Source: Nitrospirota bacterium (lineage in GTDB: Bacteria > Nitrospirota > Thermodesulfovibrionia > UBA6902). Taken from it: 64,000 bases of DNA. Under the pieces are notes generated by a model. That model searched no databases, had not been told where the DNA came from, and saw nothing but the letters and a program-made list of their open reading frames with translations. Shown one piece after another: positions 41,748-63,369 of this stretch (position 1 is its first letter; every line of letters starts with the position of its first letter). The translations under genes and the position numbers were made by a program. The stretch lies in the NCBI GenBank assembly GCA_016215115.1, contig JACRLN010000020.1, positions 28,766 through 92,765 on the forward strand, in the 5' to 3' direction.

Positions 41748-42794
41748 ATGAAACTCAAAGAACTGTCAGATCTCATAGGCGGCAGGATTACAGGTGACCA
41801 TGAGGTCGAAATCACAGGCGCAGCCGGAGTAAATGAAGCAAAGCCGGGTGATATTACCTTCCTTGCCGATAAAAAACTTCTAAAGGATCTTTTAACTTCA
41901 AAAGCTTCAGCCGTAATTGCAAGGGAAAAGATAGAAGATTTGTCAGTCAGCATTCTCATTTCCGACAATCCTTATTTTACTTTTGCCAGGGCTCTGGAAG
42001 TTTTTTACAGGAAACCATTTAAACCTTTGGGAGTTAGCGATAAAGCGACTGTTTGCAGAGATGTCAGTTTTGGCGAAGATGTTTCAATATATCCGAATGT
42101 ATATATCAGCAATAATGTTGCGATAGGATCACGGGTAACAATGTTCCCTGGTGTTTTTATTGGTGAAGGAACATCAATTGGCGATGATTCAATTATTTAT
42201 TCAAATGTAACAATAAGAGAGAATGTAACAGTCGGTAAAAATGTAATAATACATGCAGGAGCTGTCATAGGCTCTGATGGTTTCGGCTACGTCTTTGAAA
42301 AGGGCGTCCACTATAAAATTCCGCAAGTCGGCGGTGTGATAATTGAAGATGATGTTGAGATAGGCGCGAACGTAACAATTGACAGGGCGACTACCGGAAA
42401 TACAATCATTGGGAGCGGGACCAAGATAGACAATCTGGTACATATCGCCCATAACGTTAAGATAGGCAAAAATTGTATAATACTGGGGCAGGTCGGTGTA
42501 GCGGGCAGTGCGGAGATAGGTGAAGGAGTCATCCTTGCCGGACAGTCCGGCGTGAGAGACCATGTAAAAATAGGCAACGGCGCCATGATTGGCTCTAAAG
42601 CAGGCATTTCAGATAATATACCTGATGGACAAATATATTCCGGATTCCCTGCCATTCCACACAAAACATGGCTCCGGGCACAAAGTATTTATTCAAAACT
42701 GCCTGAGTATATTAAACGTTTACAGGAACTTGAGAGGAAAATAACATCGAGTGAAGAAGTCAAGGAGTCAGGAAGTGAAGAAGACAGGAAGTAA
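41748..42794 (+). CDS. lpxD: UDP-3-O-(3-hydroxyacyl)glucosamine N-acyltransferase
   Basis: Adds the N-linked 3-hydroxyacyl chain in lipid A synthesis. 348 residues: an N-terminal uridine-binding domain ([26 protein letters not shown]), the left-handed beta helix of hexapeptide repeats, and the catalytic His in [23 protein letters not shown] (about H230). The [12 protein letters not shown] motif is also typical. The last 15 residues ([15 protein letters not shown]) come from short GAAGT-type repeats and look like a non-conserved tail. Confidence 0.96.
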
Positions 42795-42837
42795 GGGAAT
42801 GGAGACTTCCTCACTTCATCACTACTTCACTTAGCAT
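42752..42837. repeat. GTGAAGAAGT-type short repeats at the lpxD 3' end
   Basis: GAGTGAAGAAGTCAAGGAGT and GTGAAGAAGACAGGAAGTAAG on one side, GACTTCCTCACTTCATCAC and ACTTCACTT on the other, form an imperfect inverted array spanning the lpxD stop. It would fold just upstream of fabZ. Confidence 0.7.
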
Positions 42838-42854
42838 TAAGGAGGGATATTCAA

Positions 42855-43295
42855 ATGATGGACTGCCGTGAAATTCAAAGAATCCTGCCCCATAGATTTC
42901 CCTTTCTTCTGGTTGACAGGATTATTGACTTAAAGCCGAATGTAAAAGCTGTCGGAATCAAAAATGTAACAATCAACGAACCGTTCTTTCAGGGGCATTT
43001 TCCAAATTATCCCATTATGCCCGGCGTTTTGATCGTGGAGGCGATGGCGCAGGTTGCCGGTATACTGGCTTTTCATTCAGGCGCTAAAGGTAATACAGTA
43101 TATTTTCTGAGTATTGAAAAAGCAAAATTCAGGAAACCTGTAGTGCCCGGCGATCAGCTGCGTTTTGAGGTGACTATACTACAGCAAAGGAGCAATGTTT
43201 GGAAGTTCACTGCTGAGGCTTTTATTGAAGATAAACTTGTCGCTGAGGCGGAATTTACAGCAATGGTATCTAAAGAGGGGTTGACAAATGGCTAA
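42855..43295 (+). CDS. fabZ: 3-hydroxyacyl-[ACP] dehydratase FabZ
   Basis: 146 residues, single hotdog fold. It dehydrates 3-hydroxyacyl-ACP in fatty acid elongation. The catalytic His is in QGHFPNYPIMPGVLIVEAMAQ (about H54), with the Glu about 14 residues on. The N-terminal RILPHRFPFLLVDRII is the FabZ signature. It ends with 8-base overlap into lpxA, so the two are coupled; sharing 3-hydroxyacyl-ACP between FabZ and LpxA/LpxD is the usual logic of this operon. Confidence 0.96.
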   Translation: MMDCREIQRILPHRFPFLLVDRIIDLKPNVKAVGIKNVTINEPFFQGHFPNYPIMPGVLIVEAMAQVAGILAFHSGAKGNTVYFLSIEKAKFRKPVVPGDQLRFEVTILQQRSNVWKFTAEAFIEDKLVAEAEFTAMVSKEGLTNG

Positions 43296-44067
43296 AACTA
43301 AAATTCATCCGACAGCAATTGTAGCTTCAAATGCAAAACTATCAGAAGGCGTTGAGATAGGACCTCATTGTACCGTTGGAGATAACGTGAAAATCGGCAA
43401 AAACACCAAACTCTTCTCACACATTGTTATTGAAGAAACTGAAATAGGTCAAAGCTGCAATATATATCCATTCACCTCAATAGGGCTTCCGCCACAGGAC
43501 ATCAGATATAAAGGGGAGACGACAAAAGTTAAAATTGGTGATGACAACATCATAAGGGAATACATAACAATCCACCGCGCCTCTGTCAGTGGAGACGGGG
43601 TCACAAAAATAGGGAATAATAACTTTTTAATGGCTTATGTCCATATCGCACATGACTGCAACGTCGGAAACAATATTGTCATGGCAAATGCAACTACACT
43701 TGCTGGTCATGTAGTGGTAGAGGACTTTGTGTTTATAGGAGGCCTAGTTGCAGTCCATCAGTTTGCACGAATAGGAGCGCATTCAATGATAGGCGGTTTT
43801 AGCGCTATACCACAGGATATTCCTCCATACACAACAGCCGCGGGTGAGAGGGCCAAGCTGTACGGGTTAAACACTATTGGTCTGAAAAGGCGCAATTTCG
43901 ACGATGCAACAATCAGCGACCTCAAGAAGGCATACAAAATATTGTTCCGCAGCAAACTAACGCTGAAAGAAGCAATAGACAAGGCCAAACATGATTTAGG
44001 CCATTCTGAGGAAGTTAAGAACTTTATTGAATTCATAGAAAAAAATAAAAGAGGGATATGCCGGTGA
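43288..44067 (+). CDS. lpxA: Acyl-[ACP]--UDP-N-acetylglucosamine O-acyltransferase (LpxA)
   Basis: First step of lipid A synthesis, acylating position 3 of the UDP-sugar. 259 residues: a left-handed beta helix with catalytic His in AYVHIAHDCNVGNN (about H122), the SIGLPPQDIRYKGE sugar-binding loop, VAVHQFARIGAHSMIGG and the C-terminal helical domain (LNTIGLKRRNFDDATISDLK). Overlaps fabZ by 8 bases. With a GnnA/GnnB-like pair downstream (45015-47067), the real substrate may be the 3-amino sugar UDP-GlcNAc3N, giving an amide-linked chain. Confidence 0.95.
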   Translation: MAKTKIHPTAIVASNAKLSEGVEIGPHCTVGDNVKIGKNTKLFSHIVIEETEIGQSCNIYPFTSIGLPPQDIRYKGETTKVKIGDDNIIREYITIHRASVSGDGVTKIGNNNFLMAYVHIAHDCNVGNNIVMANATTLAGHVVVEDFVFIGGLVAVHQFARIGAHSMIGGFSAIPQDIPPYTTAAGERAKLYGLNTIGLKRRNFDDATISDLKKAYKILFRSKLTLKEAIDKAKHDLGHSEEVKNFIEFIEKNKRGICR

Positions 44068-44120
44068 AACAGCTAAGAGCTGACATCTGTTAGCTCTTAG
44101 CTCTGAAGGACTTAAAATTA

Positions 44121-44942
44121 GTGAATGATAAAAAACTTGCCATCATTGCCGGAATGGGCGGACTGCCAAAGGTAGTTGCTGCAGAGGCTAAAAAGATGGG
44201 CTACAGGGTTGTAGGGATTGCACTGCAGCCTCCATCTGATGAATCACTTAAACCCTTTGTTGATGACTTCCATAAAATGAATCTCGGACGTTTCGGGGGG
44301 TTAATATCTTTACTTAAAAAACTCTCCATTACAAATGCAGTAATGGCAGGAAAAGTTCCCAAGGACCTTTTATATAAGAATAAAACCAGCGTTATTCCTG
44401 ATATGAAAGCAGTCAAGCTTCTTTTTTCATTAAAGAACCGTGCAGATGATACCATCATGAATGCTGTAGTCAATGAACTCGAGAAAAACGGGATTACACT
44501 CCGCAGCACTACCGACTTCACAAGAAACCTCCTGGTCCCCGCAGAGGTGATGACACGTAAAAAACCCTCAAAAGATGAATTGAAGGATATTGAATTTGGC
44601 TGGGATATAGCCAAAGGAATGGGGCAGTTGGACATCGGGCAGACAGTAGTTGTAAAGGAGTTGGCTGTAATGGCAGTTGAAGCTATCGAGGGCACTGATG
44701 AAGCTATCAAAAGGGGCGGGAGTCTCGCAGAAAAAAATGCTGTAGTCGTAAAAGTCAGCAAGCCGCGTCAGGACCTGAGGTTTGATGTGCCTGTTGTCGG
44801 AATTGATACGCTGCATTCCATGAAAAACGTTGCAGCAAAGGTGTTAGCCCTGGAGGCAGGAAAATGTATTATTGTTGATAAAGAGAAATTTATAAAAGAG
44901 GCGGATAATGAGGGGATCGTTGTTGTCGGGGTAAGATCGTGA
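44121..44942 (+). CDS. lpxI: UDP-2,3-diacylglucosamine diphosphatase LpxI
   Basis: 273 residues. Cleaves UDP-2,3-diacylglucosamine to lipid X and UMP. It replaces LpxH in many diderms. N-terminal KLAIIAGMGGLPKVVAAEAKKMG and C-terminal KPRQDLRFDVPVVGIDTLHSM, with the conserved Asp of the metal site. GTG start at 44121; a stretch of AGCTAAGAGCTGACATCTGT-like short repeats lies in the gap to lpxA. lpxB and lpxK are not in the window. Confidence 0.92.
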   Translation: MNDKKLAIIAGMGGLPKVVAAEAKKMGYRVVGIALQPPSDESLKPFVDDFHKMNLGRFGGLISLLKKLSITNAVMAGKVPKDLLYKNKTSVIPDMKAVKLLFSLKNRADDTIMNAVVNELEKNGITLRSTTDFTRNLLVPAEVMTRKKPSKDELKDIEFGWDIAKGMGQLDIGQTVVVKELAVMAVEAIEGTDEAIKRGGSLAEKNAVVVKVSKPRQDLRFDVPVVGIDTLHSMKNVAAKVLALEAGKCIIVDKEKFIKEADNEGIVVVGVRS

Positions 44943-45000
44943 ATCGTGTCCGGTTAACGTGTCCGGAAAAAAACGGACACGGACAACGGTCACGGAGGAC
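44943..45000. repeat. Hairpin repeat of the GTGTCCG type
   Basis: GTGTCCG (44959-44965) and CGGACAC (44974-44980) pair around GAAAAAAA. Neighbouring words (AATCGTGTCCGG, GACAACGGTCACGG) match the repeat at 5588-5637. Confidence 0.75.
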
Positions 45001-45014
45001 GGGTTTTTAAAGGC

Positions 45015-45935
45015 ATGATTAACGTTGGAGTCATAGGGGTCGGTTCAATCGGGAAGCACCATGCAAGGATATTTTCAAACCTTGAAGGTGTAAGGCTCGT
45101 TGGTATAGTTGATGCTGATTTTCCGAGAGCGGAGGAATTTGCACAAAAGTATAACTGTAAGGCATTTAAAGACCATCTGAAAATTATAGACTCTGTGGAC
45201 GCAGTCAGCATTGCCGTGCCGACAACCTTTCACTTTCAGGTGGCAATGGATTTTCTGGGTCATAACAAAAACATACTTGTCGAGAAACCAATTACTTCAA
45301 CACTCGAAGAAGCAGAAACCCTGACCTCAGAGGCGGAGAAAAGAAACCTGATCCTGCAGGTGGGTCATCTTGAGAGGTTTAATGCAGGGGTTTCCATGAT
45401 AAGCGGTATGGTGGATAAACCACAGTTTATTGAGTCACAGCGCTTATCCCCGTTTCTCGGGAGGGGGATAGATGTTGACGTAACGCTTGACTTAATGATA
45501 CATGACATAGATATAATATTAAGTTTGGTTAAATCCGAAATAACTGATATCCGGGCAACAGGGGCCAGGGTGTTAACAGAAAATATAGATGTGGCCCATG
45601 CGTGGATTGAGTTTGAAAATGGCTGTATTGCCGAAGCTGTCACAAGCAGGATAGCTAATGAAAAAGTCCGGCAGCTCAAAGTTTTTCAGCATAATTTATT
45701 TATGAATCTGGATTATCAAAAACAGGAATTAACCTGTTATACAAAGCTTGACGACAGCGTTGGAAAGGAAATTAAAAAGACGGAAGAAAAAGAACCGTTA
45801 AAAGAACAGCTTGTTTCGTTTATAGAATGCGTCAAAAACGGAACTCAGCCTCTTGTTTCAGGACACGAAGGCAAAGAAGCCCTGAAAATAGCGTTAAAAA
45901 TATCAGGGCTGGTTAATCATAACCTTAAGATATAG
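45015..45935 (+). CDS. Gfo/Idh/MocA oxidoreductase, probable GnnA (UDP-GlcNAc 3-dehydrogenase)
   Basis: 306 residues: an N-terminal Rossmann fold (INVGVIGVGSIGKHHARIF), the NAD/substrate EKP motif (NILVEKPIT, about 93), and the C-terminal alpha/beta domain with VGHLERFN and DLMIHDIDIILSL, where the His acts in catalysis in the family. It directly follows lpxI and precedes a DegT/DnrJ aminotransferase by 7 bases. In Acidithiobacillus ferrooxidans and Leptospira the pair GnnA/GnnB lies among lpx genes and turns UDP-GlcNAc into UDP-GlcNAc3N for lipid A. The same role is inferred here. A role in another 3-amino sugar remains possible. Confidence 0.8.
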   Translation: MINVGVIGVGSIGKHHARIFSNLEGVRLVGIVDADFPRAEEFAQKYNCKAFKDHLKIIDSVDAVSIAVPTTFHFQVAMDFLGHNKNILVEKPITSTLEEAETLTSEAEKRNLILQVGHLERFNAGVSMISGMVDKPQFIESQRLSPFLGRGIDVDVTLDLMIHDIDIILSLVKSEITDIRATGARVLTENIDVAHAWIEFENGCIAEAVTSRIANEKVRQLKVFQHNLFMNLDYQKQELTCYTKLDDSVGKEIKKTEEKEPLKEQLVSFIECVKNGTQPLVSGHEGKEALKIALKISGLVNHNLKI

Positions 45936-45942
45936 ATAAGTT

Positions 45943-47067
45943 ATGACAAATATTACACAAAATAAAACTGTCATCCCTATGCTTGATATTAAGGCGCAGC
46001 ATGGACCTATCAAGGAAGAAATAAAACAGGCGTTGAAGGATATCCTGGACAGCGGTCAGTTTATATTAGGGCCGAATGTTAGATTGTTTGAGCAGGAAGT
46101 AGCATCATATTATAATGTCGGGCACGCTGCTGGACTTGCTTCAGGTACTGACGCCCTGTACCTTTGCCTGAAAGCTCTGGATATTAAACAGGGTGATGAG
46201 GTAATTACCACTCCTTTTACATTTATCGCAACTGCAGAGGCAATAACATATGTCGGGGCAACTCCTGTCTTTGTTGATATAGACAGGTATACATTAAACA
46301 TGGATGTCTCAAAAATAGAGAAAAAAATAACTCTAAAAACCAAAGCCATCATCGTTGTACATTTGTTCGGGCAGCCTGCAGATATGGATGAAATCACGGA
46401 GCTTGCCGGAAAATATAATTTAAAAATTATTGAAGACTGTGCGCAGGCGTTCGGAGCAAGATATAAAGGCAGGCATATAGGCACTATCAGCGACGCGGGC
46501 TGTTTCAGTTTTTATCCAAGCAAAAATCTGGGGGCTTACGGTGACGGCGGCATGATGATAACGAACCGTAACGAAATATATGAAAATGTTAACCTTCTCA
46601 GGAACCACGGGACCGTTGCGCCTTACCGGCACCGTTTTATAGGTTATAACAGCAGGCTTGATGAAATCCAGGCAGCAATCCTGAGAATAAAATTAAAACA
46701 CATTGATGAATATAACCGGAACCGCCGCAAACTTGCCAATATCTATACGTCAATTCTTGACGGCGCCGTTCAATGTCCTTTAGAATTTCAGGACAGAACG
46801 CATGTTTATCATCAATATACCATAAGGACACAAGAGAGAGATAAAGTTGCAGCTATTCTCAGAGAAAACAATATCTCTTCAGTAGTATATTATCCTGTTT
46901 CGCTTCATATGCAGGAAGCTTTTAATTACCTTGGTTATAAGAAAGGTGATTTGCCGGAGAGCGAGTCTGCTGCAGATGAGGTATTGTCAATTCCTATTTA
47001 TCCTGAACTTAAGCCGGAGAAGGCAGAGTATATCGGCAATGTTATTTTAAAAGCGCTTAAAGCTTAA
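45943..47067 (+). CDS. DegT/DnrJ/EryC1 aminotransferase, probable GnnB
   Basis: 374 residues, PLP-dependent sugar aminotransferase. Signatures: ILGPNVRLFEQEVASYYNVGHAAGLASGTDAL, VHLFGQPADMDEI, EDCAQAFGARY, the PLP Lys in FSFYPSKNLGAYGDGGMM (about K193), and the C-terminal HVYHQYTIR. Paired with the upstream oxidoreductase (7-base gap) it should transaminate the 3-keto sugar made by that enzyme, with UDP-GlcNAc3N the likely product by analogy with GnnA/GnnB. The gene ends 13 bases before the convergent mltD-like gene. Confidence 0.85.
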   Translation: MTNITQNKTVIPMLDIKAQHGPIKEEIKQALKDILDSGQFILGPNVRLFEQEVASYYNVGHAAGLASGTDALYLCLKALDIKQGDEVITTPFTFIATAEAITYVGATPVFVDIDRYTLNMDVSKIEKKITLKTKAIIVVHLFGQPADMDEITELAGKYNLKIIEDCAQAFGARYKGRHIGTISDAGCFSFYPSKNLGAYGDGGMMITNRNEIYENVNLLRNHGTVAPYRHRFIGYNSRLDEIQAAILRIKLKHIDEYNRNRRKLANIYTSILDGAVQCPLEFQDRTHVYHQYTIRTQERDKVAAILRENNISSVVYYPVSLHMQEAFNYLGYKKGDLPESESAADEVLSIPIYPELKPEKAEYIGNVILKALKA

Positions 47068-47079
47068 TCCCCTCCACAA

Positions 47080-48792
47080 TTATTCTGATACTTTTAAAAT
47101 CTGACCTTCATAAAGAAGAGACGACGTCAGGTTGTTGATCTTTTTTAGCTGAGTTGTATTCGTATTGAATTTTTTGGCAATTATCTTTAAGGTTTCGCCT
47201 CTCTTTGTACGATATTTTCCACTGGGAAGACGATTATCTTCAAATGAGAGCATGTCACTTCCCCTGCCGAGAGGTATTTTCAGTTTTTGACCTGTGTTAA
47301 GGGTACGTCTCCTGCTGATTTTATTTGCCTTGACAATCGCATCAACACTTGTACGGTATTTCGCAGCTATACGGGATAAGGTATCGCCTTTTTTAACAGT
47401 ATGATATGTATAATCATTATATTCATTTCTTTGCGGAGTCCACGCCGGCATGTTTTCAAGTTTTGAAAGCAGCACAGTACTCATTCCCGATGGAACATTA
47501 AGTGAATATCTGGTAGGTGGGGTAGCTTGCCGGCGGAGTTCGGAATTTAAAGCAGAAAGTTCTTCAAAGGGTATGTCCATAATGTCAGCCAGTGTCTTTA
47601 GTTGGATCTGCTTTTCAATGTCAACTTTTTCATAAAGAGGAGGGCTTTCCAGTTCTTCAAAAGAGAAACCGTACCTCGCAGGATTTTGTACAACATGCAA
47701 TGTAGCCAGGAATCTTGGAACATATCGCGCAGTTTCCCCGGGAAGTCGCCCGTAAAGATCCCAAAAATTATCAAGATAATTGATTTTCTGCTGCCGTATC
47801 ACTCTCAGGACATTTCCTTCTCCGCAGTTATACGCGGCAAGAACAGTGGTCCAGTCGCCGAACATCTGATGCAGCTCTTTCAGATATGCAGTAGCAGCCG
47901 CAGTTGCTTTTTCAGGGTTTAATCTTTCATCAATCCATGTATCTCTTTTTAAACCGAATCTGTAGCCTGTAGATGGAATAAACTGCCAGAGTCCCAGTGC
48001 ACGGGCTGGAGATAATGCACTTACCTTGAACCAGCTTTCAACAAGTGGCAGCCAGGACAGTTCTTCAGGCATGTCCGCCTCTTTCAGTGTCTTCACCATT
48101 GCTTCTCTGTATTTTCCTGAACGCTTATATGCCTCTATAAAAAACTCGCGTTCAGGCCCCTGAAATGACTTAATCTCTCTTTGCACATGTTCATTCATTG
48201 TGAGAGGAATTTCCTTGTGATTGCCATTGACCGTAGTATACCGGGAGGTATAAATCTCCAAAATCCTTTTAGAGATCATAAATCTCAAATCTTCTGTTTG
48301 CCGCATGAGTTCAGGATGACTGTCGGTATCAACTTTCAGGACAAACTGATAGGCTTCATCCAGGGACTCAATTGCTTTTTCAGGATTGCCTTGAGCCCAA
48401 AGTTCCTGGGCATCATTACACGAATCTAATGCGTTATCAAGAAGGTCCTGTTCTTTATTGATACTGTTATCATTTTCCTTTTCTGCCGGACTGTTAGCAG
48501 TATCGTTCTGAGAAACAATAAATTTATCTTCTCTTGTATCTTCCACGTATATCTCAGCCGCTTCTTGCCGGACAACTGGTATTATTTCATTGTCTGAGTT
48601 TTTAACTTTTTCTTCTTTAATATGAGAAACAATATCAGCGGCATCTTTCTTATCAACAACTGTATCTGTTTCATAAAAAGAAACAGGGAGCAATTTGCCT
48701 GTATTATTGACAACCGGGGTATTTGTCATTGCACAACTGAAAGTTAAAAAGACAGTTATAAAGAATGAATATCTGCAAAATAAAATCTTCAT
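47080..48792 (-). CDS. mltD: LysM-containing lytic transglycosylase (MltD-like lipoprotein)
   Basis: 570 residues. Signal peptide with lipobox FLTFSCA (Cys about 20), a low-complexity acidic region to about 165, a soluble lytic transglycosylase domain (about 240-390), and LysM repeats at about 464-508 and 523-567. The transglycosylase domain has the catalytic Glu in WLPLVESWFKVSALSPARALGLWQFIP and the AAYNCGEGNV motif. Cleaves peptidoglycan from the outer-membrane side and binds glycan through LysM. Convergent with the aminotransferase gene and monocistronic. Confidence 0.92.
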   Translation of the reverse strand: MKILFCRYSFFITVFLTFSCAMTNTPVVNNTGKLLPVSFYETDTVVDKKDAADIVSHIKEEKVKNSDNEIIPVVRQEAAEIYVEDTREDKFIVSQNDTANSPAEKENDNSINKEQDLLDNALDSCNDAQELWAQGNPEKAIESLDEAYQFVLKVDTDSHPELMRQTEDLRFMISKRILEIYTSRYTTVNGNHKEIPLTMNEHVQREIKSFQGPEREFFIEAYKRSGKYREAMVKTLKEADMPEELSWLPLVESWFKVSALSPARALGLWQFIPSTGYRFGLKRDTWIDERLNPEKATAAATAYLKELHQMFGDWTTVLAAYNCGEGNVLRVIRQQKINYLDNFWDLYGRLPGETARYVPRFLATLHVVQNPARYGFSFEELESPPLYEKVDIEKQIQLKTLADIMDIPFEELSALNSELRRQATPPTRYSLNVPSGMSTVLLSKLENMPAWTPQRNEYNDYTYHTVKKGDTLSRIAAKYRTSVDAIVKANKISRRRTLNTGQKLKIPLGRGSDMLSFEDNRLPSGKYRTKRGETLKIIAKKFNTNTTQLKKINNLTSSLLYEGQILKVSE

Positions 48793-49395: not shown

Positions 49396-50178
49396 ATGCT
49401 CCCTTTGAAGGATAAGGTCGCTTTAATTACAGGAAGTTCACGGGGTATCGGCAACGCAATAGCGCGTAAATGTGCATATGCAGGCGCTGATATTGTGATC
49501 AATTACAGGAAAACAGGCGGAACATCTCAGGAACAGGGGGGGCAATTATGTAAAGAAATAGAGGGGATCGGACGTCGCGCTTTTATGGTTCAGGCTGACA
49601 TAGCAGTAAAAGATTCTGTAAAAAAACTGTTTGCTGAAACAAATGAGAAATTCGGGCGACTGGATTATCTTATACTGAATGCTGCCAAGGCGCCGTTTAA
49701 ACCTTTTGAAAAGCTATTTGAGCGGGAATTGCGGCAATTGGTTGAAACAAACTATCTGGGCAATATATTCTGCATTCAGGAGGCGTTACCTCTATTGGAA
49801 AAATCATCGGGAAAGATCGTCTTTATTTCAAGCCTTGGAAGCCGTTTTTATAACCCCGCTTATCCACTTGGAAGCATGAAAGCAGCAATGGAATCAGTGG
49901 TGAGGGATTGCGCTGAGGGCTTAAGATCAAAAAAGATATTAGTCAATGCGGTTTGCGGCGGAATTGTCAAAACAGATTCTTTCAAGGTATTAAGGCAGTA
50001 CTGGGAGCATATTGATATGCTGCCGGATACGCTTTTCGTTGAGCCTGATGAGATAGCAGACGTTGTGGTATTTTTATGCAGTACTGAGAGCAGGGCAATA
50101 ACAGGGCAGACAATCATCGTTGACAGGGGACTGAGCAATGCTATTTGCAGATTGCCGGAAGTAAAAAGTAAGGAGTAA
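49396..50178 (+). CDS. SDR-family enoyl-[ACP] reductase, FabL-like
   Basis: 260 residues, short-chain dehydrogenase fold: the cofactor loop GSSRGIGNAIARKCAYAGAD with INYRK, which suggests NADPH, NAAKAPF, and the C-terminal IRGQTIIVDGG-like ITGQTIIVDRGLSN. The active-site region FISSLGSRFYNPAYPLGSMKAA lacks the classical YxxxK. It resembles the FabL enoyl-ACP reductase (ISSLGSxRY...K) but is one residue shorter between Tyr and Lys. FabL reduces trans-2-enoyl-ACP in the last elongation step. It is followed by an acyl carrier protein and a ketosynthase gene, so it probably works on ACP-bound chains of that system. A ketoreductase role cannot be excluded. Confidence 0.75.
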   Translation: MLPLKDKVALITGSSRGIGNAIARKCAYAGADIVINYRKTGGTSQEQGGQLCKEIEGIGRRAFMVQADIAVKDSVKKLFAETNEKFGRLDYLILNAAKAPFKPFEKLFERELRQLVETNYLGNIFCIQEALPLLEKSSGKIVFISSLGSRFYNPAYPLGSMKAAMESVVRDCAEGLRSKKILVNAVCGGIVKTDSFKVLRQYWEHIDMLPDTLFVEPDEIADVVVFLCSTESRAITGQTIIVDRGLSNAICRLPEVKSKE

Positions 50179-50242
50179 GGGATATGGGGTTGTTAACCTA
50201 TAACACAATACGGATTACGAATTATATATTCAGGGAGGCATT

Positions 50243-50806
50243 ATGAGTCAGAATATTATTTCTGAGGAAAAGGTTTTTAATGAATTGAAAAAAGCTGTTG
50301 TTGAAACACTTAGAGTTGATGCTGACAAAATAAATCCGGAAACATCTCTGATAAAAGACCTGGGAGCAGAATCTCTTGATTTTCTTGATATCAATTACAG
50401 ACTGGAACAGGCGTTTGGAATCAAGATGGCGCGCCATTTTGTGCTTGAACATATAGAAGAGATGTTCGGAGAAGGCACTGCAATAGATGAGAACGGTCAG
50501 TTGACGGATAAAGCTGTTGAAACATTGAGGATAAGATTTGGTAATGGTGTTTCTGAATTAAAACCCGGCATGGACATGGATGAGGTGCCGGCTTTACTTA
50601 CTACGCAATCAATGGTAAGAGGCGTAATGGATATACTGGACAGCCTTTCCGAAAAATGCTCAAAGTGCGGCAGTTCCGGCTGGGAATCTAAAGACACTGT
50701 CCGCATCACATGCGCTTCATGCGGAGAACCTGCAACCTTTACAAACGGCGACGAGCTAATTAAAGAGTGGCTGACCAAAGTTCAGGAAGATAAGAAGATA
50801 TTTTAA
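50243..50806 (+). CDS. Unusual acyl carrier protein with internal insertion and C-terminal zinc ribbon
   Basis: 187 residues. Residues 1-60 look like ACP: helix I (KVFNELKKAVVETLRVDADKI) and the phosphopantetheine site DLGAESLDFLDINYRLEQAF with Ser44. The next segment (about 63-113) is an insertion not found in ordinary ACP. LLTTQSMVRGVMDILDSL (about 117-134) then looks like the last ACP helix. After it comes a Cys4 zinc ribbon (C139-C142 and C157-C160, CSKCGSSGW...CASCGEP). Normal ACP is about 80 residues. It has a good ribosome site (GGGAGG) and lies one base before the ketosynthase. The zinc ribbon probably docks a partner. Its cargo is unknown. Confidence 0.75.
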   Translation: MSQNIISEEKVFNELKKAVVETLRVDADKINPETSLIKDLGAESLDFLDINYRLEQAFGIKMARHFVLEHIEEMFGEGTAIDENGQLTDKAVETLRIRFGNGVSELKPGMDMDEVPALLTTQSMVRGVMDILDSLSEKCSKCGSSGWESKDTVRITCASCGEPATFTNGDELIKEWLTKVQEDKKIF

Positions 50807-50807
50807 T

Positions 50808-52103
50808 ATGTCTTCCAATTTTTCTAAACGCAGGGTGGTTATAACCGGATACGGGATGATTACCCCTTCCGGGAAAGATACTGAAGAAACATTCGAAAAC
50901 TGTGCTAACGGTATCTCCGGCATCGATTATATCGCATCTTTTGATACAACAGGATTTCCCTGCAGGATCGGAGGTGAAGTTGACAACAGATGGCTTGAAG
51001 ATTTTGAGTGCCGGACAGATCAGAGGTTAAAAAAATTTTCCTCACGCGGACTCAGATTAATGAGAATTGCAACTAACGAGGCCGTACAGAGGTCGAGGCT
51101 TAATGAAATAGCAAACCGTGAAAGTATCGGCGTTTCGGTCGGCTCTCATGGAGATAATCTTTCCGTTCAGGACATGCTCTTTCTTCACAGATTTTTTGAC
51201 GGCAACGGGCATTGGGACATGAAAGGACTGATACATACAGGAGGGTATCAATACCTTAATTTTTTCCGCAGAAAACCGGATGCGGCAACGTCAATACTTG
51301 CAACTCTTTTAAACTGCAAGGGACCAAACAATTCCATAGTCTCAGCGTGTGCCGCAGGCTCCCAGGCCATCGGTGAAGCCTTCAGATTAATACAGGATGG
51401 AAAGTGCGATATTATGATTGCCGGTGGTTGTGAGGCAACTCTGGACTTTTCGGGAATGGCCGGTTTTATTCTTTTAAAAGCGTTGTGTGAAAAATATGCC
51501 AATCCACAAACTGCATCAAGACCTTTCGAACGTAAGAGAAACGGCTTTGTAATGTCAGAGGGTGCAGGAGCGATAGTTCTTGAAGAGCTTGAGCATGCCG
51601 GTTCAAGAGGGGCACAAATATTTGGGGAATTAAAAGGTTACGGTTCTTCTGCTGATGCCTACAGGATAACAGATACTCATCCGAAAGGGCTTGGAGCCAT
51701 AATAGCCATAAAAGCAGCATTGGAAGATGCATCTGTCCAGACAGGGGAAGTTGAATATATCAATGCCCACGGTACATCCACTTTACAAAACGATTTGACC
51801 GAGACGCGCGCAATAAAAGAGGTGTTCGGTGAAAAGGCAAAGGATATCCCTGTCAGTTCAAACAAGTCTATGCTCGGTCATACAATAGCAGCAGCAGGCG
51901 CTATTGAATGCATCCTGACACTTGTTGGAATTAACCGTTCAATCATTCTCCCAACTATCAACTATGAATTCCGCGATCCTAAGTGCGACCTTGATTATGT
52001 GCCCAATGAGGCAAGAAAAAAAGAGCACCGCATAGCCATCTCCAACTCCTTCGGCTTCGGCGGCCAGAATGCGTGCTTATGCATCGGGGCGTTTGAAGGG
52101 TAA
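50808..52103 (+). CDS. Beta-ketoacyl-[ACP] synthase (FabF/KAS II-like)
   Basis: 431 residues, thiolase fold. The catalytic triad is present: Cys181 in VSACAAGSQAIGEA, His in INAHGTSTLQND and His in NKSMLGHTIAAAGAIE. N-terminal RRVVITGYGMITPSGKDTEETF and C-terminal ISNSFGFGGQNACLCI are standard FabF signatures. It should condense malonyl-ACP with an acyl chain. The start is one base after the stop of the unusual ACP gene, so the two are coupled. Pairing with a non-standard ACP suggests a dedicated condensing system rather than the housekeeping FabF; a house FabF would be expected with fabD/fabG elsewhere. Confidence 0.85.
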   Translation: MSSNFSKRRVVITGYGMITPSGKDTEETFENCANGISGIDYIASFDTTGFPCRIGGEVDNRWLEDFECRTDQRLKKFSSRGLRLMRIATNEAVQRSRLNEIANRESIGVSVGSHGDNLSVQDMLFLHRFFDGNGHWDMKGLIHTGGYQYLNFFRRKPDAATSILATLLNCKGPNNSIVSACAAGSQAIGEAFRLIQDGKCDIMIAGGCEATLDFSGMAGFILLKALCEKYANPQTASRPFERKRNGFVMSEGAGAIVLEELEHAGSRGAQIFGELKGYGSSADAYRITDTHPKGLGAIIAIKAALEDASVQTGEVEYINAHGTSTLQNDLTETRAIKEVFGEKAKDIPVSSNKSMLGHTIAAAGAIECILTLVGINRSIILPTINYEFRDPKCDLDYVPNEARKKEHRIAISNSFGFGGQNACLCIGAFEG

Positions 52104-53730: not shown

Positions 53731-54354
53731 ATGATTATCAAAAAACTTGTAGTCGGACCGCTTCAGGAGAATTGCTACATTGCCGCTGATGAGAAGACAA
53801 AGAAAGCTCTTGTCATTGACCCGGGAGACGAGCCGGACAGGATACTTGAAGTTATTAGAGACAATAACTTTGAGATCAGCGCTGTGATATTGACTCATGC
53901 CCACTTTGATCACGTAGGGGCCGCAGGGGACATAAAAAGAGCAACCAGTGCGAAAGTGTTAATTAATGATGGCGACATGGAACTGTATAAAGGAGCCAGA
54001 GATCAGGCTGCCTTCTGGGGTTATGAGGTAGATGACTTACCGGAGCCGGATGGTTTTATTAAAGAAGGCGACGAAGTCAGTGCCGGGGAATTGACATTTA
54101 AAGTTTTGCATACGCCGGGTCATAGTCCCGGGGGAGTATGTCTTTACGGCGAAGGAACTCTATTTAGCGGTGATACCATTTTTCAGGGTTCTGTCGGGCG
54201 GACCGATTTCTACGGCGGAGATATGACAAAGCTTAAAGAATCTTTTAAACGTATACTTGGTTTACCGGAAGATACAATTATTCTTTCAGGTCATGGGCCC
54301 GAGACGACGATCGAAAGAGAGAAGAGAGAGAATTTTTTCATTGAGGAGATCTGA
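53731..54354 (+). CDS. MBL-fold metallohydrolase (glyoxalase II-like)
   Basis: 207 residues with the metallo-beta-lactamase metal motif THAHFDHVGAAGD (about 56-68), HTPGHSPGGVC and FSGDTIFQGSVGRTD, ending LSGHGPETTIEREKREN. The layout is that of YcbL/glyoxalase II-like hydrolases, which cleave thioesters such as S-lactoylglutathione or related substrates. The last 17 bases overlap the 3' end of tlyA on the opposite strand. It pairs with the preceding flavin reductase gene. Confidence 0.85.
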   Translation: MIIKKLVVGPLQENCYIAADEKTKKALVIDPGDEPDRILEVIRDNNFEISAVILTHAHFDHVGAAGDIKRATSAKVLINDGDMELYKGARDQAAFWGYEVDDLPEPDGFIKEGDEVSAGELTFKVLHTPGHSPGGVCLYGEGTLFSGDTIFQGSVGRTDFYGGDMTKLKESFKRILGLPEDTIILSGHGPETTIEREKRENFFIEEI

Positions 54355-58551: not shown

Positions 58552-60060
58552 ATGACACTGAGCACTTTATTATTAACAAGGGCAAAAAGTATCCCTGATA
58601 AGATTTGTATAACTTTTGAAAAGAAAAAGTTTTCTTACTTCGCAATAGACAATCTTGTCACTAATATCGCCGGTGGACTTAAGGCGCTTGGAGTTGAACG
58701 TCGCGATAGTATTGCGATTTTAATGAACAATTGCCCTGAATACATAGTTTCATATTTCGCGATACTCAGGGCAGGTGGAATATCGGTCCCCATAAACAAT
58801 TTTCTTACTCCGGATGAAATATCCTACATACTTAATGACAGCAACTGTAAGTTTCTTGTATACAATAATTCTTTTTCATCTCATGCAGAAAAGATAAAAA
58901 AAATAATTCCTTCTTTAAAAGCCGTAGATTTCGGGGAGATCCCCAATATCCCCACCATCCCCCCTTTGTTAAAGGAGGGTGAGGGAGAAAAAAATAGTGA
59001 TGAGGTTGCTGTATTGCTGTATACATCAGGAACCACAGGTTTTCCCAAAGGTGCGATGCTTACCCACCGCAATCTCTTATCCAATGCTGAAGCCAGTATG
59101 AAGGCTATGAATGTTTCAGGTAAAGACAGGATATTGCTCTTCCTCCCGTTGTTCCATTCCTTCAGCTTTACAGTATGTGTGATCCTTCCGATATATGCAG
59201 GCGCGCGAATTGTGTTGCTGAGATCTGTAAAGCCGTTTTCAAAGGTAATAAACAGTATTCTTAAAGACAGGATAACTTTATTTGTTGCAGTTCCAACGGT
59301 ATATAATATTCTTTCTAAAAAGAGGATACCGTTTATTGCGAGATGTTTACTTAAATTTTTAGTAAATATCAGGGCATGTGTATCAGGCGCAGCAGCTTTA
59401 CCGGAAGATACAATTTATGCATTTGAAAAAAGATTTAACATCCCGTTGATTGAAGGTTACGGGCTTACGGAAGCATCCCCCGTTGTTGCCGTAAATCCAT
59501 TGAAAGGCATAAGGAAGCCTGCTTCAGTCGGACCTCCTGTTCCGGGAGTCGAGGCAGTTGTTGTTGGGGAAGACGGGAAGAAATTACCTGCTGGAGAAAC
59601 AGGCGAGCTGATCATAAGAGGTCCTAATGTAATGAAGGGGTATTTTAATAAACCGCAAGAAACAGAAGCGGTATTGAGGGATGGTTGGCTTTATACCGGA
59701 GATGTGGCAAGGATCGATGAAGACGGATACATATACATAGTTGACAGGAAAAAGGATGTTATCATTATTGACGGAATGAATGTCTATCCGCGAGAAGTAG
59801 AGGATTTCATCTTGAAGCACCCTTCGGTTGAAGAATGCGCCATGGTCGGAGTTCCGGACGGCAAGGTGTCAGAGATGCCGATACTTTTTATCAAAAAAAG
59901 GGGAGATGCGGTCATTGAAGAAAATGAAATAAGGAATTACATGAAAGGACGTATAGCACAGTTTAAGAACCCAAAGAAGATATTTTTCATCGATGAATTC
60001 CCAAAGACGGCTACAGGAAAGATAAAAAAGACTGAATTACGAAAGCAGAAGCTTAGTTAA
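58552..60060 (+). CDS. AMP-dependent acyl-CoA synthetase/ligase
   Basis: 502 residues, ANL superfamily. Adenylate motif LLYTSGTTGFPKGAMLTHRN (about 155-175), core EGYGLTEASPVVAVNP, GWLYTGDVARIDEDGYIYIVDRKKD and the C-terminal catalytic Lys in PKTATGKIKKTELRK. It activates a carboxylic acid (a medium or long fatty acid by family resemblance) with ATP and CoA. Residues about 128-146 (EIPNIPTIPPLLKEGEGEKN) correspond to an in-frame class D repeat (58936-58990). The chain length specificity is unknown. It is not clearly linked to the ACP cassette. Confidence 0.88.
   Translation: MTLSTLLLTRAKSIPDKICITFEKKKFSYFAIDNLVTNIAGGLKALGVERRDSIAILMNNCPEYIVSYFAILRAGGISVPINNFLTPDEISYILNDSNCKFLVYNNSFSSHAEKIKKIIPSLKAVDFGEIPNIPTIPPLLKEGEGEKNSDEVAVLLYTSGTTGFPKGAMLTHRNLLSNAEASMKAMNVSGKDRILLFLPLFHSFSFTVCVILPIYAGARIVLLRSVKPFSKVINSILKDRITLFVAVPTVYNILSKKRIPFIARCLLKFLVNIRACVSGAAALPEDTIYAFEKRFNIPLIEGYGLTEASPVVAVNPLKGIRKPASVGPPVPGVEAVVVGEDGKKLPAGETGELIIRGPNVMKGYFNKPQETEAVLRDGWLYTGDVARIDEDGYIYIVDRKKDVIIIDGMNVYPREVEDFILKHPSVEECAMVGVPDGKVSEMPILFIKKRGDAVIEENEIRNYMKGRIAQFKNPKKIFFIDEFPKTATGKIKKTELRKQKLS
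58936..58990. repeat. Class D repeat inside the AMP-ligase gene
   Basis: GAGATCCCCAATATCCCCAC on the left and AAGGAGGGTGAGGGAGAAA on the right are the class D arms. The stretch is translated in frame (IPNIPTIPPLLKEGEG). Confidence 0.75.
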
Positions 60061-60072
60061 AAAAATCTCTTT

Positions 60073-63000
60073 TTAAGAGAATTCTTTCAGAAGCTTCACC
60101 ATAATATCTCCAAAACCGGGCATGCCGGTAAATGAAGAAATATTTTCGGGTTCAAAACATTCATTAATGTTCGGAGTATACCCGGAGATATTATTGATAA
60201 AGCCCAGGCCGGAAGCCTTTTGCCCCCCTGGTCCGAAGGCGGTTTTAATGACTCCCGGCATTATTTCTTCTGTCAGCAATGCTTTCCCTTTCACCCGTTT
60301 TTTGTAAGGTGTTTCCAGAATTACGATATCTCCTGTTTTTATATTTAAACGCTCACCGTCGGATTTATTAATTGCAAAGACCGGTATTGAGACTGTTCCT
60401 GCAGCAAAATGATTTTCATTGTGAGTGAAATCGTTATTAAGGCGTTTCATGCATTCGGTTTCTGTTTCGGCAAGATATGGACAGATTGTTGTCATAGTCA
60501 TTGTATAGTGGACCCTTCCGCTTATTAACTGAAAGGGATATTCTTTGCTCACCTCCTGGAATGAGGAGTTTTTCGGATTCCATTTGCAATCTTTCCAGTA
60601 AAATGTGGTGGGGAAATCTGTTCCGAATTTATTATTGATGTTTTCAAGATAACTGAATCTGAATTCAAACTTCTTTGAAACGGTTTTAGGATATATACAC
60701 GATGGCGAACCATCTGATTTTTTGTATCTGTAATAGCTTGCAGGCCATATTGCAACTCCGTTGTGTTTTCTGAGCCAGTCAACTGTGAGGAGTTCTCCCT
60801 GTTTTATGATCTTTTTCCCCCAGATAACAATTGGATTATCAGGCGTGCCGATTATCAAACATCCTTCTGGAAGTTCAGGATAAGGAAGAGGAGCACCAAC
60901 ATTATAAAATTCCGGAGACTCAGCAAGTATTGCATTTATGAAAGCTTCTTCGTTTTCATATTTCTGAACGAAGTCTTCTGCCCTGATGTCAGGGTCTCCG
61001 TTCTTAAGTAAAGCGTTTGCAAGGGCGATCATGATTTCAAAAGGTGTCTTTGATTCATAAAGCGGCTTGATAACCTGATCCCTGATAGCTATTTCAGGAC
61101 TCATGGTATAAACATCGCTTACTCCCATTCTCTCGAGGAAACCGGCTTCGGGGAGTATTATATCTGCATACTTACCGGTTTCTGTTATGTGCGTATCAAT
61201 GAATACGATCAGTTCAAGCTGATATTCGTTTGATAACCCCCCTTTAATTCTCCCCTTATCTAAGGGGGGAGGCAGGGGGGTTATATCATTATCAAAGTTG
61301 GGATCATTCTTCAAGGTCAATGCGTCAATCCAGTCAGGGGTGCTGCCTGCAGTTATGACAGGATTTCCAGCTCTTGTAATAAAAGCTTTGACAGGATAAG
61401 AATAATCTTTAAAAGGACCATGTTTCAGTTTTATTCCTTCCCTTATTTTCTTCGGTAGGTCAGCAAGCACTCCTTTCCATGCAGCCGGATAATCTCCGGA
61501 AAGGTCTTTATGAAGATCGGAAAGTCTACCTGAAGCATCGCTGCTGTTAATCTTTCTGCTGACAACTGTTTCTAAAAAGTCTTTTCCGATGGTCCTGCTG
61601 CCTCTCTTCGGTTTTTGTGAATCGATAAATACAAGACCTCCCGGAACGTCAATATTGCCTGTTATTATGCAAAGCGCTGTCATAAGAATTGAGGTAACGT
61701 CGCCGTTTGAATGGTGTGCCGTGCCATGCATCCCTATTTCAATTGAAGCTGGCTTAGTACTTCCGAACATGTGGGATATTTTCATGAGGTCCTCAACGGA
61801 AATTCCTGTCTTTTCTGCAGTCCATTCAGGAGTAAAGAAATTTAATTTATTTAAAGGGTCTGTGAATTCTGTATAAGAAAGAAAAGCATCTTTGAATTTC
61901 TGCCAGCCCGTTGTGTAATTTTTTATAAAAATATGATCTATATATTTTTGTTCATTTGTAAGAGAATCATTTTTAATTATGTAATAAAGCATTCCTGCAA
62001 GCAGGGCAGCGTCTGTTCCGGGTATTATTGGAAGCCATAGGTCCGCACGAGCAGCGGAATTGGTATAAGCAGGATCAATTACAATATATATACATCCATT
62101 TTCTTCCTTTGCTGCCGGAATTCCTTTGGACATGTAATTGAATCTTGTTGCCACAAATGGATTTACTCCTATATTCAATATTAGTTTGGCATCATGCTTT
62201 TCTTTAAGATAGAGTTCATTGTCATCGTTTCTCATCAGTAAAGGTCTCTGAACATCCGGCAGGGGTCTTTCATCACCCGTCATAATACCCTGTCCCCATC
62301 TGCGGTTGGGATCGCAAATGCTTCCGTGGTTGTATGTGTTTGGCGTACCAAAGGCATGAAACAACCTGTAAAATGCCTCTCTGTCGGTAACATCACCACA
62401 ATCTAAAAAAACCGACTCAGGCCCGTATTTGTGTTTTATATCAATTAATTTTTTCGCAAAATAATCAGAAGCTTCCACCCACGTGATCTCTCTCCATTTA
62501 TCTTCACCCCTTTCTCCGATCCTCATGAGAGGTGTTTTTATCCTGTGAGGAGAGTAAGTTAGTTGAAGTCCTGAAGCGCCTTTTGCACATAAGGTCCCGT
62601 TATTTATAAGGGTATGTGGATTGCCGTATATTTTTTTCGCTATACCGTTTTCTACAAGCACAGATATGCCGCATTCAGAGGGACACATGACGTCTGATGT
62701 AAATATTAACTTTTCTGTGCTTTCCGGTTGTTCTACGGACTGTTTTGTTCTGATACGGTGTGTGGCTTTGCCGGCAGATGGTATATTATCTTTTAACGGC
62801 GTATTACTGCTATTACCTTTAAATATGTAGAAGACCGAGGGATTTGTTCCGTGTTCAGGACTTAGAACCTTTAAGTTCTGTTTTGTTAATTCAGCAGATA
62901 TTACGCTGTCCGGATTATTGATATCACCAAAAAGTATTGCCTTTCCCATACAGCTTTGCACACATACAGGAAGGAGTCCTTTTGTTATTCTTCCGTAACA

Positions 63001-63369
63001 AAAATCGCATTTTTCAGCCTGTCCTGTGACAGAGTTTATTTCAATTGCATGATATGGACATTTCTCAATACACATTTTGCAGCCGATACAGTTGCTGTTG
63101 TTTAAAACAACAACTCCGTCCTGATTTTTATAGAGTGCTTTTTCTTTGCATTCTTCAATACATGGGGCGTTGTTGCAATGATTACAAAGGCGGGGGAGGA
63201 AAATTTTCATAACCTCGGGATAATTGCCTGACTGATATGTTTCAACCCTGCACCGGAACGTACCAAAGGGGATATTGTATTCTGCTTTGCATGATACCTG
63301 ACAGGCATAACATCCGATGCATTTGTCGAGGCTGATTAACATCCCGTATCTTTTTTGAAGTTTTGCCAT
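60073..63369 (-). CDS. Fused four-cluster ferredoxin and molybdopterin oxidoreductase
   Basis: 1098 residues. Residues 1-180 are a PsrB/DmsB-like subunit with four Cys groups for [4Fe-4S] clusters (CIGCYACQVSC, CNHCNNAPC, CIGCKMCIEKC, CDFCYGR...CVQSC). From about 215 it is a molybdopterin enzyme catalytic subunit. The FS0 motif is D226-x2-C229-x3-C233...C261, so the usual first Cys is an Asp. Then come NHGSICDPNRRWG with Cys352 as probable Mo ligand (PsrA/TtrA/ArrA group), HGTAHHSNGD, and the C-terminal molybdopterin-binding beta domain. Subunits A and B are usually separate genes; here B precedes A in one chain. There is no signal peptide or Tat motif at the start. Substrate unknown; reductases of polysulfide, tetrathionate, arsenate or similar are possible. 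Residues about 696-712 come from a class D repeat. Confidence 0.85.
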   Translation of the reverse strand: MAKLQKRYGMLISLDKCIGCYACQVSCKAEYNIPFGTFRCRVETYQSGNYPEVMKIFLPRLCNHCNNAPCIEECKEKALYKNQDGVVVLNNSNCIGCKMCIEKCPYHAIEINSVTGQAEKCDFCYGRITKGLLPVCVQSCMGKAILFGDINNPDSVISAELTKQNLKVLSPEHGTNPSVFYIFKGNSSNTPLKDNIPSAGKATHRIRTKQSVEQPESTEKLIFTSDVMCPSECGISVLVENGIAKKIYGNPHTLINNGTLCAKGASGLQLTYSPHRIKTPLMRIGERGEDKWREITWVEASDYFAKKLIDIKHKYGPESVFLDCGDVTDREAFYRLFHAFGTPNTYNHGSICDPNRRWGQGIMTGDERPLPDVQRPLLMRNDDNELYLKEKHDAKLILNIGVNPFVATRFNYMSKGIPAAKEENGCIYIVIDPAYTNSAARADLWLPIIPGTDAALLAGMLYYIIKNDSLTNEQKYIDHIFIKNYTTGWQKFKDAFLSYTEFTDPLNKLNFFTPEWTAEKTGISVEDLMKISHMFGSTKPASIEIGMHGTAHHSNGDVTSILMTALCIITGNIDVPGGLVFIDSQKPKRGSRTIGKDFLETVVSRKINSSDASGRLSDLHKDLSGDYPAAWKGVLADLPKKIREGIKLKHGPFKDYSYPVKAFITRAGNPVITAGSTPDWIDALTLKNDPNFDNDITPLPPPLDKGRIKGGLSNEYQLELIVFIDTHITETGKYADIILPEAGFLERMGVSDVYTMSPEIAIRDQVIKPLYESKTPFEIMIALANALLKNGDPDIRAEDFVQKYENEEAFINAILAESPEFYNVGAPLPYPELPEGCLIIGTPDNPIVIWGKKIIKQGELLTVDWLRKHNGVAIWPASYYRYKKSDGSPSCIYPKTVSKKFEFRFSYLENINNKFGTDFPTTFYWKDCKWNPKNSSFQEVSKEYPFQLISGRVHYTMTMTTICPYLAETETECMKRLNNDFTHNENHFAAGTVSIPVFAINKSDGERLNIKTGDIVILETPYKKRVKGKALLTEEIMPGVIKTAFGPGGQKASGLGFINNISGYTPNINECFEPENISSFTGMPGFGDIMVKLLKEFS
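61233..61284. repeat. Class D repeat inside the molybdopterin gene
   Basis: ACCCCCCTTTAATTCTCCCC and GGGGGGAGGCAGGGGGGTT form an inverted repeat. In the protein it reads DITPLPPPLDKGRIKGGL, in frame and without family counterpart, on a probable surface loop. Confidence 0.8.

Follow-up and report, generated by a model that had tools for sequence, protein, structure and literature searches.

We propose, with moderate confidence, that a set of eleven genes, split between two contigs in this Nitrospirota genome (G000), builds a specialised acyl chain on an acyl carrier protein (ACP) with a Cys4 ribbon, and that the LpxL acyltransferase of the set transfers this chain to lipid A. The first three genes of the set, SDR1, ACPz and KS1 (the triad), lie in the window, by which we mean the whole stretch of 64,000 nucleotides that was analysed. 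The features relevant here are as follows.

41748..47067, forward strand: lpxD-fabZ-lpxA-lpxI-gnnA-gnnB, a lipid A operon upstream of the triad (context, outside the set).
47080..48792, reverse strand: murein transglycosylase D-like gene (mltD) that separates the triad from the lipid A operon (context).
49396..50178, forward strand: SDR1, a FabL-like short-chain reductase with Tyr-X5-Lys, predicted enoyl or keto reductase (domain and PDB matches, motif).
50243..50806, forward strand: ACPz, an acyl carrier protein of 187 amino acids (Ser44, insertion at about 63-111, Cys4 at 139-160, C-terminal helix at 169-184).
50808..52103, forward strand: KS1, a FabF-like ketosynthase with intact Cys-His-His (family match, active-site residues).

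The original prediction had placed a reductase, an ACP and a ketosynthase side by side at these positions, and both coordinates and adjacency proved correct. It had also read a shortened FabL-like active site in the reductase. SDR1 indeed has Tyr-X5-Lys where the FabL aligned for comparison has Tyr-X6-Lys, and the shorter spacing was found in 53 of the 53 SDR1 sequences that remained within length and score limits from 57 ORFs, some genes having been fetched twice. FabL was the closest PDB match of SDR1 (3oic, 142.8 bits), followed by a FabG (119.9 bits), and was also its top NCBIfam match, but the score of 207.7 was under the cut-off of 328. Membership of the FabL family was rejected because of this score and the spacing; by the same two measures we class SDR1 as FabL-like. 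Because genomes without the set need other means of enoyl reduction, SDR1 is presumably not the housekeeping enoyl reductase.

That the second gene encodes an ACP was borne out by domain search and structure prediction: ACPz matched PF00550 over the cut-off, kept the phosphopantetheine serine, and was modelled as a four-helix fold with a helical insertion. Its length of 187 amino acids, Ser44, the insertion and the four cysteines were all as first described, and Ser44, helical insertion and Cys4 were conserved in an alignment of 78 sequences with identity down to 51%. Both CxxC knuckles were present in 218 of 220 homologues among the matches listed. The original prediction hinged on insertion and ribbon being kept in relatives, and they were, with one fused exception in G044. 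There (L072:2549-4255, on the same contig as G044:C41 and L115), an ACP core without the Cys4 ribbon is fused in frame to KS1 in a protein of 568 amino acids, found in a single draft genome and possibly an assembly artefact. The NF005079/PRK06508 model, which we take to be the AcpXL-type ACP model, gave ACPz 44.9 bits against a cut-off of 83.

The Cys4 tail of ACPz is predicted to bind zinc. When folded alone, the isolated Cys4 piece gave a weak model (pLDDT 70.6), and comparison of this model with the PDB brought up only weak matches to ribosomal proteins, none reaching E 0.001. The ribbon may dock a partner protein. The covalent ACP-KS1 fusion that replaces the ribbon in G044 hints, from this one draft genome only, that the partner is KS1.

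In a tree of 47 sequences, rough where the long branches of KS2 and KS4 meet, the four ketosynthase types KS1, KS2, KS3 and KS4 were each monophyletic with full support. The ORFs numbered 56, 31, 37 and 41, respectively, before filtering; the residue counts refer to those left after dropping ORFs outside length or score limits and identical rows. The catalytic Cys, both His and the Lys were all present in 48/48 KS1 and 30/30 KS3 sequences, so that the Cys-His-His first read in the KS1 of the window holds for its whole type. The Cys was found in none of 23 KS2 sequences (Ala in 18, Ser in 3, Gly in 2), of which 16 had the second His, and in none of 39 KS4 sequences (Ser in 38, Pro in 1), of which 38 had the first His and all 39 the second His and the Lys. 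As they lack the catalytic cysteine, KS2 and KS4 are probably chain-length-factor-like. KS2 was compared with the PDB in a form translated from a start codon downstream of that of the full ORF. Two models that we take to be of the FabF1XL/FabF2XL type, NF004970 and NF005076, scored 357.3 and 327.7 against KS1 and 377.8 and 293.8 against KS3, under their cut-offs of 525 and 629.

The full gene order, as seen in many other loci, is SDR1-ACP-KS1-KS2-DH1-KS3-FabG-AcpS-DH2-KS4-LpxL. A contiguous set ending in LpxL occurs in other families, for example in L048, L050 and L051/G083, and likewise in G099, without FabG and AcpS. In G000, KS2-DH1-KS3-FabG-AcpS-DH2-KS4-LpxL is on a separate contig (C13:34789 to about 42556). 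The triad had been called a stand-alone module, which it is not: it is the head of the eleven-gene set, the remaining genes of which are on another contig in this genome. The idea of a dedicated acyl-chain system gained support, and neither of the two outcomes that the original prediction had named against itself came about: the triad genes stay together, and the ACP insertion and cysteines are conserved, save in the G044 fusion.

Both dehydratases of L053, DH1 and DH2, as well as the DH2 of G000, resembled FabZ but scored under its cut-offs. For DH1 of G000, NCBIfam gave no match at 1e-20, yet the protein is similar to DH1 of L053. Among 24 genomes scanned for PF01648, G000 had three matches, one of them inside the set; the block-less G005, G006, G010, G019, G022 and G028 had one each; and in G002 and G013 the sole match was that of the set. 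G083 has the set without its AcpS, as does G099. The AcpS of the set is thus an additional phosphopantetheinyl transferase in several genomes, not in all.

Other genes near the set were considered. The pfkB and flavin reductase genes downstream of the triad were rejected as members; counting the window, pfkB was present in 2 of 42 contexts. A gene for an AMP-binding acyl ligase near the triad (window 58552-60060) was rejected as starter ligase because G005 and G022, which have no triad, have the same gene. Window 60073-63369 (reverse strand) encodes a protein of 1098 amino acids with molybdopterin oxidoreductase and 4Fe-4S domains. In L111, the only locus tested for it, the gene after LpxL (L111:4553-5881) matched a Condensation domain, and similar-looking genes follow LpxL in L112 (5226-6512) and KS4 in L054 (16115-16561). 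In some lineages this condensation-like gene possibly gives the set an additional acyltransferase.

The triad, on whose cohesion the original prediction depended, is kept together across Nitrospirota and some Desulfobacterota. In 41 named related loci, mostly of Nitrospirota and three of Desulfobacterota type (L058, L068, L071), the ACP was adjoined by SDR1 in 41/41 and by KS1 in 40, the exception being L068, for which the ORFs picked were longer antisense ones. A search with the Desulfarculales protein gave further relatives named Syntrophobacteraceae and Desulfobacteraceae. Sampling of 295 genomes from the phylum of the window gave ACPz in 20, and sampling of 198 genomes from the phylum of the Desulfarculales relative gave the ACP in the centre genome alone.

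The two halves of the set occur together. ACPz was called in 34 of 101 genomes, with E-values of at most 2.1e-39; ordinary ACPs followed at 2e-8. KS4 was present in 31 genomes, every one among those 34, and in none of the 67 others. Within the family of the window (37 genomes), KS4 was found in 23 of 25 genomes with ACPz as against 0 of 12 without it. Fisher tests, which take no account of kinship, do not serve as proof here. The genomes with ACPz and without KS4 were G020, G044 and G028. The assemblies of G020 and G044 gave no PF03279 match whatever and so probably do not include the lpxL locus. In G028 (C52, L114), SDR1 is broken in two pieces and the ACP is short; in G035 (C96), the ACP is split between frames.

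Both halves are absent from G005 and G006, which belong to the same genus as G000. In G005, lpxL (80% identical) begins 151 bases after argH (83%), without KS2-KS4 between them, and the neighbouring kinase-like gene and lpxB-waaA-lpxK come next, in synteny with G000. The second site in G005 reads bamA-ompH-lpxD-fabZ-lpxA-lpxI-gnnA-gnnB-mltD, with one extra gene between lpxI and gnnA; the triad, pfkB and the flavin reductase are missing after mltD, where one unrelated gene leads on to the orthologue of window 53731-54354. argH abuts lpxL in G006 too, where mltD has other neighbours. In a tree of LpxL from 40 genomes (25 with the block, 15 without), G000 and G005 were sisters (99/97), G035 grouped with the block-less G022 and G029 (99/99), and the block needed four changes. 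From the tree and the empty sites we conclude that the two halves come and go jointly, next to an lpxL that is inherited vertically. G019, G028, G032 and G037 have a strongly divergent LpxL (28-30% identical), on a long branch of this tree.

LpxL of G000 matched PF03279 over the cut-off (165.4 bits) and keeps the HX4E motif (HIGNWE). It is the sole match of this genome over most of the profile; the other match is partial (39.5 bits) and lies in a cluster on contig C21. Against NCBIfam models of lauroyl acyltransferases, LpxL of L051 scored 146.3 of 273 and the G005 copy 147.3 of 248, under the cut-offs. A PF03279 gene adjoins KS4 in 26 of the 31 genomes with KS4 and is the only PF03279 match in 12 of the 31. 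The five genomes in which KS4 is not beside such a gene are all of family f14, and in L053 and L054 genes other than LpxL come after KS4 within the available stretch. Genomes that lack the set still have LpxL orthologues, so LpxL does not depend on the product of the set.

The second half of the set in G000 is near lpxB-waaA-lpxK, so that both halves stand at lpx operons in this genome. In the family of the window, lpxB, mostly with waaA and lpxK, was near LpxL in 17 of the 23 genomes with KS4; of the remaining six, two have LpxL no more than about 2 kb from a contig end, and in four lpxB was not seen. The triad was at most 6.5 kb from lpxA, lpxI, gnnA or gnnB in 12 of 46 distinct loci (14 counting mltD), a count that leaves out the window, though it has the linkage, and includes some loci with shorter flanks. 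Outside the family of the window, lpxL was the only lpx gene seen beside the set. The lpxB, lpxK, lpxD and lpxA genes pass their NCBIfam cut-offs, while waaA and lpxI fall short. The gnnA/gnnB-like genes between lpxI and mltD (window 45015-47067), named from family matches and neighbourhood, suggest, given the role described in the available part of PMC5644692, that lipid A here has a backbone of 2,3-diaminoglucose to which chains are attached through amide bonds. Our literature search found no lipid A structure from these organisms.

These data make LpxL and lipid A the likely recipient of the chain. Some observations count against this: KS4 lacks an adjacent PF03279 gene in f14 and an adjacent LpxL in L053 and L054, the triad is near lpx genes in only some of the loci, and PF03279 enzymes occur in other clusters too, as with the partial match in C21. 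A dedicated fatty acid synthase for a phospholipid, a hydrocarbon or another envelope lipid, its proximity to lpx genes being accidental, would accommodate the missing KS4-LpxL link and the limited linkage of the triad, as well as an LpxL that works without the set. We regard it as unlikely, since LpxL closes the cluster in families f1, f5, f9 and f17 and in the Desulfarculales locus L071, both halves of a split set are at lpx operons in one genome, and no other acyltransferase recurs in the 42 contexts, save the condensation-like gene in L054, L111 and L112.

Under the lipid A reading, the set would be a dedicated system in the manner of a type II fatty acid synthase (FASII) or type II polyketide synthase (PKS), and AcpS would put phosphopantetheine on Ser44 of ACPz. 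KS1 and KS3 would elongate the chain with malonyl units supplied by the housekeeping FASII; each may work as a pair with one of the cysteine-less types, KS2 and KS4, which would act like chain-length factors. FabG would reduce the keto group, DH1 and DH2 would carry out dehydration, and SDR1 would likely reduce the enoyl group in some cycles. Judged from the sequences, these parts should be enough to elongate, reduce and dehydrate a chain on ACPz in repeated cycles, given housekeeping malonyl units. In the simplest end to the cycle, LpxL would take the acyl chain directly from ACPz to lipid A. Direct use of acyl-ACP by LpxL fits the gene content: no thioesterase, starter (AMP) ligase, LolA-like or exporter gene was found among the eleven. 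More specifically, and only tentatively, two ketosynthase/chain-length-factor pairs acting on the zinc-ribbon ACP might make a very long or polyunsaturated lipid A chain, independently of AcpXL, in the way of a type II polyketide synthase and with the ribbon as an address label to KS1, a bond that the fusion in G044 would have turned covalent.

The absence of those same genes is at odds with another possible product, an aryl-polyene-like or other polyene pigment that the LpxL-like acyltransferase would fix to another outer-membrane lipid. Aryl polyene gene content, as given in the available part of PMC8253772, is indeed similar: the set combines intact ketosynthases (KS1, KS3) with others that lack the cysteine (KS2, KS4), and has a pair of dehydratases, FabG and an acyltransferase. 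However, genes for AMP ligase, LolA and thioesterase lie in another cluster of G000, that on C21; the AMP ligase of the window is not tied to the triad; the FabL-like reductase argues for saturation; and set-less genomes have an LpxL orthologous to this acyltransferase. A polyene product is thus improbable in our view. The closeness of KS1, KS3 and FabG to FabF and FabG might point to redundant copies of housekeeping FASII genes that make nothing special; we hold this to be very improbable in view of the four distinct monophyletic ketosynthase types (two without catalytic cysteine), an ACPz found almost only together with the set, the absence of the set as a unit from two loci within one genus, and the FabF and FabG that we take as housekeeping elsewhere in the genome (G000:C23).

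The cluster on C21 (G000:C21:34000-62000; L187, L188) is a second FASII/PKS-like cluster, with several ketosynthases, two ACP-like genes and a FabG-like gene. It also has amine-oxidase/desaturase-like, AMP ligase, LolA and thioesterase genes, the partial PF03279 acyltransferase and three radical SAM genes, two of them with B12-binding domains. A candidate exporter of 789 amino acids in this cluster gave no Pfam match.

Lipid A normally draws its chains from housekeeping acyl-ACPs, and the dedicated acyl supply line to lipid A known to us is the rhizobial AcpXL system. If the lipid A reading is right, the set would be a second route, apart from rhizobial AcpXL, to a tailor-made lipid A chain, and a differently built supply line in Nitrospirota, including magnetotactic lineages, with a carrier of unusual architecture. 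An undescribed acyl chain in lipid A would be predicted, and ACP selectivity would become testable through the insertion or the ribbon. Searches of the open-licence literature gave no paper combining acyl carrier protein, zinc ribbon and ketosynthase, and, for lipid A or LPS of Nitrospirota/Thermodesulfovibrio and for type II PKS with lipid A, no such system among the matches listed.

The set can be compared with several known systems. It has in common with the ladderane-like FASII clusters of Kuenenia and Desulfotalea, as far as the available part of PMC2649909 describes them, several diverged FabF paralogues whose active sites are altered, but it is without their radical SAM or phytoene-desaturase-like genes; it is the C21 cluster that recalls them. 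With aryl polyene clusters, in the portion of PMC8253772 available, it shares a ketosynthase with a chain-length factor, an extra ketosynthase, two dehydratases, a ketoreductase, an ACP and acyltransferases. Those clusters have a starter ligase, a LolA-like protein and an RND exporter, whereas our set has AcpS and a FabL-like reductase, and its acyltransferase is the only full-length PF03279 match of the genome.

In rhizobia, acpXL-fabZXL-fabF2XL-fabF1XL-(adhXL)-lpxXL is a very-long-chain fatty acid system for lipid A, according to the available parts of PMC5613085 and PMC11901934. Like it, our set brings together genes for a dedicated ACP, two or more ketosynthases, a dehydratase of FabZ type and an acyltransferase of the LpxL family; this grouping is contiguous in other lineages with our set and split in G000. 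The present set differs in having four ketosynthase types (two cysteine-less), two dehydratases, FabG, a FabL-like reductase and AcpS, in its phylum, and in occupying two loci in G000. Its Cys4-ribbon ACP is under the cut-off of the presumed AcpXL model, and the presumed FabFXL models fail likewise. By analogy, the set may work like acpXL-lpxXL without being a member of that family, and acpXL-lpxXL is the closest working model for it.
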